NCBI GenBank assembly: GCA_003640385.1
Contig: RCAB01000069.1
Coordinates: 62,001 to 126,000 of the forward strand
Origin: Setaria digitata
Taxonomy: Eukaryota > Nematoda > Chromadorea > Rhabditida > Setariidae
Direction of reading: 5' to 3'
Length of the DNA: 64,000 bases
The notes under the pieces were generated by a model. The model was not told where the DNA came from, made no database searches, and worked only from the letters and a program-made list of their open reading frames with translations. A program made the position numbers and the translations under genes. Below are positions 8,172 through 26,144 of the stretch, piece by piece. Numbering within the stretch: position 1 is the stretch's first letter; each line of letters begins with the position of its first letter.

Positions 8172-11100
8172 ATGTCAGGCGCCGGCGATATGATCGAGGA
8201 GTTGTCGCTGATGAAGCAGTTGAAGGATGCTGGGGTATTCAAACTCGGTAGCTTCATTTTACAAAGTGGTCAGATCACACCCATCTACATTGATTTACGT
8301 GTTCTCTTCACCTCACCAAAAGAGCTGGTAGGTTTTCTCTTTCATTTTTTGTTCCTTTCTTATGATTAGCATACATCAGAAATACATAAATTTGATATGT
8401 CACGTTGAAAGATTTTTGGTTCTGAAACGAATGCGTTATATATTGTCCGTTGTAGATAAGGTACCTCACTCAACTTGGATAGTTTTGTTAGCCATTGGGA
8501 AGTTTTATACGTTTATTCGCAGGCTTCACTTCAGAAGTTAACGTAGTTTCATAAGTGGAATACATTCTCAACAACAATATTTAGTTTTGTTTGGAAGCAA
8601 ATTGTGAAGCTTACAGTGAGGCTTCCAATTCTGCAAAACTTCAAATAACTTTGAAATCAGTAAAGTTAAATCAAATTGCTTGAATTATAGAAGTTAACAG
8701 CCAAATGCATATGCAGTCTGATGGAAACGAGGGGCTTGAAGTATGATTATATTGTTGGCGTGCCATATGCAGCACTTCCCCTTTCAACGGTATTATATTG
8801 TCGTCATGAAAAAAACATTTTAGTATTTTCGCCTCTTTCTATTAGGTCAAAATATGAATAAATAATTTCTTTTTTTCACTGTGAATTTATTTGATTGCAC
8901 TGTTGCTACATGATTTAGATTATTGCTGATCAACTGGAGAAGCCAATGTTGTTACGACGTAAAGAAGTGAAATCATATGGCACAAAGAAACTTATTGAAG
9001 GCAACTATGAAACTGGCAAACGAGCTTTAGTTATTGAAGATGTTGTGACTTCAGGTTTTTTTTTCTGTTTAAATTTTGTTCACTAATTTCTGTTTTGAGC
9101 AGGTGTAAGAGGTTTAGCAAAAACTTCCAATTACCATTCAAAAATATAAGGAAGGAATGAATGTCGTTGATTTCACTAATTATTTGAGGAAATTATTTTT
9201 GAGCTATTCTACATTCCTAATGAGGTTCAGGCAAAAGTATTTTGGAAACAGTCATTTCACTACGTAACGAAGGTCTGATCTGTGATGAAGCTATATGTGT
9301 GTTGGATCGTGAACAAGGTGGTCCAGAAAATCTCCTAGCTGAAGGAGTTACTCTATACAGGTTATATTTTCATTTGACAGAGTTTTAGAAGGAGTGTAGG
9401 ATTAAAACATACGACTTTCTTCGTTTCATCAACTTCAGAAGATTGCAATTAGACACAATCGAATTTTGAACAGCAAGTAACCAATTCTTATTTCTCAGAG
9501 AATTACACAAGTGAGTAATTTTCTGTGTTTCAGTTTAGTGGGAATGAACAAAGTGCTTGATTTTCTGATCGATATCGGTACAATTACTCCAAAAAAAAAA
9601 GACGATATTCTGTATCAGTTGACACTTCCTCCACCGTCGACTATTGAAAAAGTGGAATACAATGATGATTGGTCGTTAACATCACGGAGAGATTCTACAT
9701 CGAATGCCTTAAACAAAAAGTTATTGGAAATAATGAACAAAGTTAGTATTTGTTTCTATTCTCTCCATCTGTTTACATTTCGAGATTTGGTACTCGATAT
9801 GGGAACCTACACGTGGAGGTTTACTTGTTGCTTGTTGTGATAGCTATGCTTTGCATCTTCTAAGATGAATATTTCTTAAACAGTAGCATTGTTTTCTCGT
9901 TCTAGTAGCTAACCGCTGACTTATGCTTGGTTTTCAAAATCATTAACCAGCGATTTAAAAGAGTTAGTGTGTTATCCTTCTACTGAAAGGATAACACACT
10001 AACTACTGAAAGACAATAAGAAAGATGATGTGAAAAAGTTGCTAGATTATCTGTCAACTTTCATTTCTTAGGAGAATATAATATTTCTAATATAATTTCT
10101 TTATTCCTAGAAAAAGACATGTTTGTGTCTTGCAATTGACAACACAAAATGTGACGAGATCATACAAATTATTGAAAAAACTGGTGGTTATATCTGTGCC
10201 GTAAAATTGCATGCTGATGTGATCGAGGATTTCAATGATGTTTTTGTGCAGAAACTTATATCAATGGCTAATAATTTTGATTTCATCATCTTTGAAGACA
10301 GATACGTTGGCGTTCTTTTTTTTTTTTAATAAAGAAAATATTCAGGAGTGTCAAGTACACCTTCATAAAGCCATCGTTATAAAATTATTGTATGACGAAG
10401 CGTAGTATCCTGCTTGCAGAGTAATTTAAAGTTATAAGATGCCTGCTTGATAGATAAGTTTAATTTATCTGTTTCATCGTATTTTAGAAAATTAGCTGAC
10501 ATTGGCTACACTGTGAATCTGCAGCTGACGAAAGGACCCTTCAAAATAGCATCCTGGGCACAAATTGTTTCTATACATGCTTTTTCTGGGCAGTCCGTTT
10601 TAAATATCTTAAGAAAGGTTCGTGTTTTTTATTTTTGTTTTTTCTGAACGTTTATGTGATTTTCTTTAGAGAATCCAAACATTTAAAGTCCGAATAAGTC
10701 ATTTCTTTCACATTATAAAATTTGATCTCCATCCTTACATTATGCTCGGATATATAAATAATGCTTCGTTTCTTTGTCTCTTTACAAGTAGACGTAACAA
10801 ATTGATGTAGTTGATATTTCTTAGTGAAAAGTGAAATTATATTTCAAAATTTAGTATCTATGTAGTTACTTGGCATACGTTTGTGCAAAAAAAAAAAAGT
10901 GAAATTTTTTGTAAAGATGCAGGTAATGTAAGCTGGATTTTCTTTTCGGCCTTGATTTTACAATCTTATAAAAGTTAGTTGTACCACACACATTAGGTAG
11001 AAGAGAATAGAGAAAGGCTCTAAAAAATAGTTTAATTTTAGGTTGTAAATCAGCCGGAGTCAAAGCTCATTGGTTGTTTGTTGGTTGTGGAAATGAGTTC

Positions 11101-11916
11101 TGAGGGAGCTTTCACTAATTCGAAAGAATATTTAAACGGTAGGTAAATAATACAATAAGTTGGTAAACTTAAGCTGTCGTCTTAGTATAAGAGCGTATTT
11201 TTTAATTTCGTCCAAAAATACCTATTTCTTTCTTTATATAAGGTGCAAAAAATAGAAATGCTTCCTGTTGGAGAAACCACTTGGATATTGCGCAGAAATG
11301 GATGAGGACGTTCTTGTACTTGTGAATGTATTGTAAATGCATCAAAATTTTGTTAAAAACATGAAAATTCTTCTATTTGTTTTCCATGGATATTAAATTG
11401 CCATTTTGCTTGAGTAAATTCTTAAGTATCAATCTAGACAGTTTTTTTTTTTTTTTTTTAGCCGCATTGGACCTAGCAAAGAATAATCGTGATATAGTAA
11501 GTGGGTTTACTTGTCAGAAACGTTGCGCCAATATACCAGGTTTTCTGTACTGGACTGCAGGTAATGATTATTAAATGATTACTAAAATTTCTTTTGTCTT
11601 TATAAGAAAGAATCGTGTCAATGATGGAGGAGCTTTGACGTTCTTATTTCATAATTTTTCAATTTTCTTCTCACCATTGATCAGTTGTGGAAATTATTTC
11701 AGTAAAATGAATACTGCTGCAGGGGTTCATATGGATGCCATAGGTGATGGAATTGGTCAAAACTGGCGTACGATCGAGAATGCAATAAGTATAGATGGAA
11801 ATGATATAGTAATAGTAGGACGAGCAGTTACGGGTGTAGCAGATGTTAATACCCAAATCCGACGTTATCGTGATGCTGCGTGGGAATCGTTCATTAATAG
11901 GCAGCAAAACCACTGA
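8172..11916 (+). CDS. UMPS: UMP synthase (orotate phosphoribosyltransferase + OMP decarboxylase), 10 exons
   Basis: Last two steps of de novo pyrimidine synthesis: orotate + PRPP to OMP, then OMP to UMP, in the cytosol. Exons: 8172-8327, 8691-8789, 8919-9054, 9231-9360, 9534-9741, 10111-10301, 10488-10617, 11042-11138, 11462-11560, 11723-11916; 1440 nt, 479 aa (human 480). OPRT half: [24 protein letters not shown], and the PRPP-binding loop [13 protein letters not shown] (about residues 132-144). ODC half: [21 protein letters not shown] (Lys-x-His-x-Asp), the catalytic [29 protein letters not shown], and a C-terminal phosphate-binding [10 protein letters not shown]. All catalytic Lys/Asp residues are present. 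The intron after exon 6 starts with AT, not GT (10302-10303), inside the catalytic motif; see findings. Confidence 0.93.
9962..10004. repeat. Perfect 18-bp inverted repeat, 7-nt loop, in UMPS intron 5
   Basis: The arm AGTTAGTGTGTTATCCTT (9962-9979) is followed by loop 9980-9986 and the exact reverse complement at 9987-10004. The 10-mer CTACTGAAAG occurs at 9980-9989 and again at 10003-10012, overlapping the loop and the 3' edge. It could be a small foldback or MITE remnant or an intronic hairpin. No function can be assigned from sequence alone. Confidence 0.9.
11442..11459 (+). repeat. T18 tract forming the polypyrimidine region of a UMPS acceptor
   Basis: Eighteen consecutive T residues lie directly before the AG acceptor of UMPS exon 9 (exon starts 11462). 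It is a mononucleotide run prone to length error and may act as the splice-acceptor pyrimidine tract. Confidence 0.8.
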
Positions 11917-24879: not shown

Positions 24880-26144
24880 TCAACTTTTTAGAAAAATTTC
24901 AAATTCCATAATTTGATGATGAAAGCAAAAGTCATCTTCGAAATCATCTGCACGACAGACTTGATTGCTTCCTGGCTCCTGGATGAATCGTCGAACGGAC
25001 ACTTTGGTAGTCGAGGTGCGATTGTCTGCAAACATTCCACAAATTGACATGCAGTGTGTGTAGGAGTAAAACATGTTAGAATTTCCACCACATCCCGACC
25101 ACCAGCTGAAAGTTCGAAATTTTAACAGTGATTCTATTTAAAATTTATCTCTAATAATTAAAATTGAAAATTCTTGAATCTTTAGAAGCCCAGTGTTAAA
25201 TCTGAGAATATTTCCAACTTGCCTGCAAACGCACTGCCGTGTTCGTATGTCAAAATGCCAACGTTCGAAATTGCCAGCACAACTCCCGGGATCGTGCGGT
25301 AGAACGCATCTTTTTCTAGGATCGTCCGATGATAAGTACCTGCACTCTTGACTACATTCTGTAATGTGTTATCAACAAAATAATGAGCACAAATTAAGAT
25401 GCTTCAACGTTGGTATCTTTGCAAAGTGTATAATATGAAAATAGAGCCGAGTAAACTTTGTTCAGTTTAAAATAAGTGAAAAAATTGTACTTAACGAAAG
25501 ATCTGCTTCCATGATAACATAAATTTTATCAAGAACTTCAAATTGAACAACGGTGTATTTTTAACAAGACGTTTTAATGAGTTAGTTGTAAATGAGAGAG
25601 ATCAGAGTCATGAGATAAAATCACACGTTTAGAACAATGATTCTGGAGCATACTGAAAAGTTCACATACATCTGATTACCATTGACCGATTCACTCATCT
25701 GATGGCTCTATTTCAACTGTCTGCAGCATATGAAAGCATCTATATGTTTATCCGGACAAAAACTTACTTAATATCATTCATCATTGTTTTCCACGTTTAA
25801 AGTCTTGAGAATATTGCTGCAAAGAGCTGTCGCGGATTCAATCGTGAAGATCGCAAAATGAGCTCTGATGGAATTAGGCTTACAAAAAAGATACCTTCAT
25901 TTGAATCAAAACGATTGTCATTGCCTTCGCAACCACCGTAATAAAACTCTCGACATCGGTGTGCATATCGATCATAGTACCATTTTGTAGTGAATCCTCT
26001 ATCTTCACAGGTACCTCTGTTAGGATAGTGATTACACCGCGCGTTATCTAGCATTTCCTGACCTCCGGTGCATTTTATCAATACGAATAGGACAAAAATG
26101 TGAAGCATTTTTTGTAGCCCATCATTACAAACATGCATCATCAT
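24880..26144 (-). CDS. Secreted protein with two Kunitz (BPTI) domains
   Basis: Exons 26144-25895, 25358-25223, 25105-24880; phases 1 and 2 agree; 612 nt, 203 aa. An N-terminal hydrophobic stretch (MLHIFVLFVLIKCTGG) is a signal peptide. Kunitz 1 has six Cys: CNHYPNRGTC, HRCREFYYGGC, DSNEECSQEC. Kunitz 2 spacing is C-x8-C-x15-C-x7-C-x12-C-x3-C: CVLPHDPGSC, RQCVCSWWSGC, THCMSIC, with an extra Cys two residues after the third. Kunitz domains usually inhibit serine proteases. Here the P1 position (after the second Cys) is Glu in domain 1 and Ala in domain 2, not Lys/Arg, so trypsin inhibition is unlikely (inference). The tail of about 48 residues adds CRADDFEDDFC. The second intron has a GC donor. 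Confidence 0.85.

Follow-up and report, generated by a model that had tools for sequence, protein, structure and literature searches.

The UMP synthase gene and its sixth intron

We analyzed a 64,000-nucleotide stretch of the draft Setaria digitata genome (contig RCAB01000069.1, positions 62,001 to 126,000, here called the window), which contains one complete gene for UMP synthase. The gene is single copy and intact apart from its sixth intron, which splits the catalytic motif FEDRKLADIG and appears to start with AT, not with the near-universal GT. The relevant features are as follows, with a slash marking a splice junction here and below.

8172–11916, + strand: UMP synthase gene (OPRT and OMP decarboxylase), a spliced reading of 10 exons and 479 aa
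10111–10301, + strand: exon 6, ending ...FIIFEDR with a split Arg codon, AG/A
10302–10487, + strand: intron 6, AT-AG, 186 nt, placed from the sequence and an enumeration of possible splits
10302–10307, + strand: 5′ splice site ATACGT after CAG, with U1 pairing possible at seven of nine positions, the exceptions being +1 and +4
10306–10307, + strand: decoy GT four bases inside intron 6, giving FEDRYKIS and a stop with the normal acceptor
10327–10333, + strand: in-frame TAA (10327–10329) overlapping AATAAA (10328–10333), reached if intron 6 is retained
10478–10487, + strand: 3′ splice site CGTATTTTAG, from the sequence
10488–10617, + strand: exon 7, starting A/KLADIG, with the motif residues Lys 308 and Asp 311

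The spliced product has the architecture of the bifunctional animal UMP synthase (OPRT-ODC), with a Pribosyltran domain (Pfam PF00156; residues 48–160, E 2.6e-9, 37 bits against a cut-off of 26.3) followed by an OMPdecase domain (PF00215; residues 248–464, E 1.1e-41, 143.7 bits against a cut-off of 27), both above the family cut-offs. This domain order and the motif are shared by the window, filarial and human enzymes, and the sole oddity of the window gene by comparison is the donor of intron 6; the other eight of its nine introns are GT-AG. The motif, FEDRK.AD.G, is present in the product if intron 6 is taken as AT-AG. Its Lys 308 and Asp 311 are presumed to be catalytic, these roles being assigned from known OMP decarboxylase.

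The reading frame is unbroken across the 479 codons and there is no further damage in the gene. Exons 7–10 and exons 1–6 are about equally similar to their counterparts in relatives (eight models compared), and the end branch leading to the window sequence (0.057) is the shortest among the 13 rows of a protein tree. Together these features argue against an old loss of function, and an intact gene of this kind may also be compatible with a very recent mutation or with an error. The assembly comprises 75,555,924 bases (75.56 Mb) in 976 contigs, among which a search for COX1 gave no match. The region spanning exons 6 and 7 (10100–10640) occurs once in it, and a genome search with this region found no second gene copy or haplotig with a different base at 10302. 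The genome has two OMP decarboxylase matches, both within the UMP synthase gene of the window. We also note, by eye, a perfect 18-base inverted repeat in intron 5 (9962–10004), with arms AGTTAGTGTGTTATCCTT and AAGGATAACACACTAACT separated by a 7-base loop.

Intron 6 reads CAG/ATACGTT...TATTTTAG/A, with the junctions ACAG/ATACGTTGGC at the donor and ATTTTAG/AAAATTAGC at the acceptor. A first-pass annotation had described an apparent AT-AG intron within the catalytic motif, and both assembly of the gene and a systematic enumeration of splits bear this out. The enumeration covered intron starts at 10250–10479, ends up to 10559 and lengths above 40 nt, and it yielded 3218 splits that are open and keep the frame. 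Eleven of these are GT-AG or GC-AG, and FEDRK is kept in none of the eleven. The accompanying statement that exon 6 must end at 10301 is slightly too strict, since the same peptide results from five placements (CA-TT, AG-TT, GA-TA, AT-AG and TA-GA), as exon and intron share bases at their ends or yield synonymous codons. However, AT-AG is the only one of the five with a standard AG acceptor, and it is thus the only sensible placement. It had also been noted that the downstream GT at 10306 breaks the frame. With the normal acceptor it does so (...FEDRYKIS, then a stop), but a correction is needed in that an in-frame GT-AG alternative does exist (10306–10458), although this separates the catalytic Asp from the Lys by an insertion of 11 residues. 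Retention of the intron would lead to a stop at 10327. The overlapping AATAAA at 10328–10333 may act as a poly(A) signal, and the TAA/AATAAA at 10327–10333 could permit a short OPRT-only transcript if intron 6 is retained.

Gene models of other nematodes at the same junction

The best models from seven filarial species are 77–81% identical to the window UMP synthase: Onchocerca flexuosa and Acanthocheilonema viteae at 81%, Loa loa and Wuchereria bancrofti at 80%, Dirofilaria immitis at 79% (over 95% of the length), Litomosoides sigmodontis at 78% and Cercopithifilaria johnstoni at 77%. These values are too low for any of the seven to be conspecific with the window. In the protein tree the window sequence lies among the filariae, Thelazia and Gongylonema with no firm position. 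We assembled a set of 122 homologues, consisting of the best 120 of 1031 matches together with two from a search with the peptide of exons 7–10. Within this set the motif lysine is kept in 119 of the 121 homologues that cover the site, with O. flexuosa P0121 outside the count as it does not extend over the motif. Both exceptions are nematode models, C. johnstoni P0006 and Steinernema carpocapsae P0029, and both are broken at the junction of exons 6 and 7.

C. johnstoni P0006 reads FEDRYLADIG, with Tyr where the catalytic Lys is expected. This departure is probably an artefact of the gene model. The peptide fits AG[A/G]TAY followed by GT, as would be the case if the gene finder had used a GT four bases downstream of the donor together with an AG within the Lys codon, assuming that this codon is AAG. 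The annotation of this genome was made using BRAKER2 with protein hints and without RNA-seq, according to a passage of PMC8564745. S. carpocapsae P0029 reads FEDRFKVCRYWQDYG... and fits exactly 4 extra nucleotides, RTTY ([A/G]TT[C/T]), between exons 6 and 7, with loss of the frame. In a codon-consistency test against the S. hermaphroditum P0013 peptide KFADTGKTMELQ, 12 codons of the shifted frame are consistent at offset 7; of the 16 offsets compared 14 gave 0, offset 6 gave 1, and only offset 7 gave 12. The fair count is 12, and it rises to 17 if M replaces I, a variant picked after inspection by hand. At the P0029 junction the annotation may be wrong, or the donor may be a further unusual one.

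Both broken models, as read from the proteins, would fit a gene finder that bypassed a true donor of the form [A/G]TNY in favor of a GT four bases further on; the window too has a GT at this distance from its putative donor. Both are compatible with either A or G at +1. If the base is G, the site may be a GTNNGT tandem donor at which the gene finder chose the wrong GT. Such a choice is harder to believe where it costs the frame or a catalytic residue.

Models that are intact at the motif are available for eight spirurid species (O. flexuosa, A. viteae, L. loa, W. bancrofti, L. sigmodontis, D. immitis, T. callipaeda and G. pulchrum), and those of Ascaris, Toxocara and S. hermaphroditum are intact there as well. 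In the tree C. johnstoni falls together with A. viteae and L. sigmodontis (a branch with support of 85/95, which is not firm) and apart from the window sequence. Given this position and the intact spirurid models, a shared AT donor would need either two origins or several reversions. The search with the exon 7–10 peptide gave two proteins among 60 candidates, O. flexuosa P0121 and Gongylonema P0122, the latter of which is intact at the junction (FEDRKLADIA). When exons 1–6 plus the read-through tail were used as the query, the 19 proteins listed at E ≤ 1e-80 were without exception longer models (447–487 aa) that were already among the homologues above, and no model ending inside intron 6 was found.

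Explanations for the AT donor

On balance we think that intron 6 is probably a genuine U2-type AT-AG intron, spliced inefficiently yet sufficiently; the weight given to this and to the other explanations is a matter of judgement and not of calculation. We favor it because the motif is recovered only with AT-AG among the placements that have an AG acceptor, because the gene is single copy and intact with no sign of a long-dead state, and because the models of two other nematodes are broken at the same junction. The first-pass annotation had offered a rare donor, a mutation and an error as three options; the broken models shift the weight, indirectly, towards a genuine non-GT donor and do not settle the choice among the three.

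At the sequence level CAG/ATACGT...TTTTAG/A has the U2-like consensus of a U2-type AT-AG intron, with a weak U1 duplex. A donor with A as its first base would have arisen from an ancestral GTACGT and would be used by the major spliceosome, with U1 still able to pair with the upstream CAG and, inside the intron, with UA and GU, and with the nematode-type acceptor TTTTAG/A setting the other end of the intron. A useful part of the transcripts would then be joined from 10301 to 10488 and give active UMP synthase. The remainder would probably use the GT four bases downstream or retain the intron, either of which would end the protein short of the catalytic lysine and leave the OPRT domain whole. 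We infer the identity of the base at 10302, the occurrence of splicing and the share of transcripts with each outcome from the genomic sequence. Beside the intact models and the position of C. johnstoni in the tree, two considerations count against a genuine AT-AG intron. The U1 duplex at its donor is interrupted and, at -2.7 kcal/mol, weaker than that of any other donor in the gene, the other eight ranging from -3.0 to -10.1 kcal/mol (the GT decoy has -1.5 kcal/mol). In addition, work in yeast and mammals leads to the expectation that A at +1 hinders the second splicing step.

A broader interpretation, which we regard as quite improbable, is that an ATNYGT donor is recurrent in nematodes (S. 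digitata, C. johnstoni and S. carpocapsae) and serves as a splicing dial on pyrimidine synthesis. The weak AT donor would give active enzyme, and use of the GT decoy four bases on would cut the enzyme before the lysine; gene finders, which write no AT-AG introns, would have kept the arrangement from view.

Two rival explanations are unlikely, although each has evidence in its favor. If there is a sequencing or assembly error at 10302 and the intron of the animal is an ordinary GT-AG one, one wrong base suffices to account for all that the window shows. The assembly, a draft of 976 contigs, offers a single copy for comparison, and among the very many donors of a draft a small number of false non-GT ones would be expected to arise by chance. 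However, an error here leaves unexplained the two other published nematode models broken at the exact junction, and a lone substitution would be atypical near a poly-T run, where errors of length are expected. Alternatively, the A could be real but of recent origin, a mutation or polymorphism that abolishes most splicing of intron 6 and leaves the sequenced worm or strain with a hypomorphic or null UMP synthase. Loss of the G at +1 usually damages splicing, a decoy is at hand in the GT at 10306, whose product stops at once, and umps-1 mutants of C. elegans are viable. Against this, the gene has no further damage and its end branch is the shortest in the tree, and the broken models of the other two nematodes point to a condition of greater age.

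Two further explanations are less likely still. Editing by ADAR, in which the A at +1 would become inosine in the pre-mRNA and turn AU into a GU-like donor, we consider highly improbable. Two of three foldings show an imperfect hairpin with the donor at its base, but in the third A10302 pairs inside exon 6. The fold of 10285–10385 is no more stable than those of shuffled sequences (z -0.91, with 36 of 200 shuffles equally good), and a stable duplex around A10302 was not found in this segment. ADAR also disfavors G as the 5′ neighbor, and G precedes A10302. Editing of AT-AG to GT-AG is reported for human C14orf37, NUP210 and CRYZL1 in a passage of PMC4176328; these introns resemble intron 6 in being AT-AG at the DNA level and differ in being edited to GT-AG, whereas intron 6 is without a supported stable duplex. 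A minor-spliceosome (U12) intron is exceedingly unlikely. Such an intron could explain the AT at the intron start, but the donor reads ATACGTTGG and is not ATATCCTT-like, there is no ATATCC, and a genome search gave no match to U12, U6atac or U11 genes, in agreement with the first-pass annotation that the intron is not U12-type. The same tool found five U1 loci and one U6 locus in this genome; its control genomes were prokaryotic and blank too. Nematodes are among the lineages listed as having lost the minor spliceosome in a passage of PMC10639083, and Trichinella is described in part of PMC2846911 as retaining this system.

We also looked for a compensatory U1, changed at position 8 and thereby able to pair with A at +1. 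It was absent from four pattern matches and the five U1 loci, in a search that scored the best candidates only and could have missed a copy. Two U1-like loci, C359:40325-40488 (L007) and C179:299989-300156 (L008), have altered 5′ ends (AAACUAACCUU and AAACUUACUUG) and are present alongside three canonical copies; they are possibly variant U1 genes or pseudogenes. Neither altered end pairs better with the intron 6 donor, and both pair worse.

Relation to known non-GT introns

Intron 6 is a probable further example, judged from its sequence, of a rare and already known kind of intron. One precedent is human ACTR10, in which an AT-AG intron is derived from GT and is exclusive to some primates, according to an extract of PMC4176328. 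The two are alike in having an AT donor from a GT ancestor (putatively so in intron 6) and a normal AG acceptor, but the ACTR10 intron was found by RNA-seq, whereas the case for intron 6 comes from the genomic sequence and from broken gene models in two other species. A second precedent is C. elegans unc-73(e936), for which a passage of PMC8865678 describes ~13% of transcripts as spliced at an intron beginning with UU. As would be the case for intron 6, the nematode major spliceosome there uses a first base other than G while GU sites close by compete for splicing; the difference is that unc-73(e936) is a mutant allele, G to U, whose site takes that ~13% share of the splicing. Among the listings and passages returned by a literature search we found no published nematode AT-AG intron named, and the term AT-AG is absent from the main text of PMC7072748.

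AT-AG introns are rare, and intron 6, if real, would occupy a conserved metabolic gene, where standard annotation would lose or replace the catalytic lysine. Published nematode models would then deserve rechecking at this junction. It would also add to the unc-73(e936) mutant a naturally occurring nematode example of how the major spliceosome deals with a first base other than G.

Elsewhere in the window, an open reading frame on the - strand (25797–26144) has the cysteine pattern CREFYYGGCEGNDNRF, which we take to resemble that of a Kunitz-type inhibitor domain.
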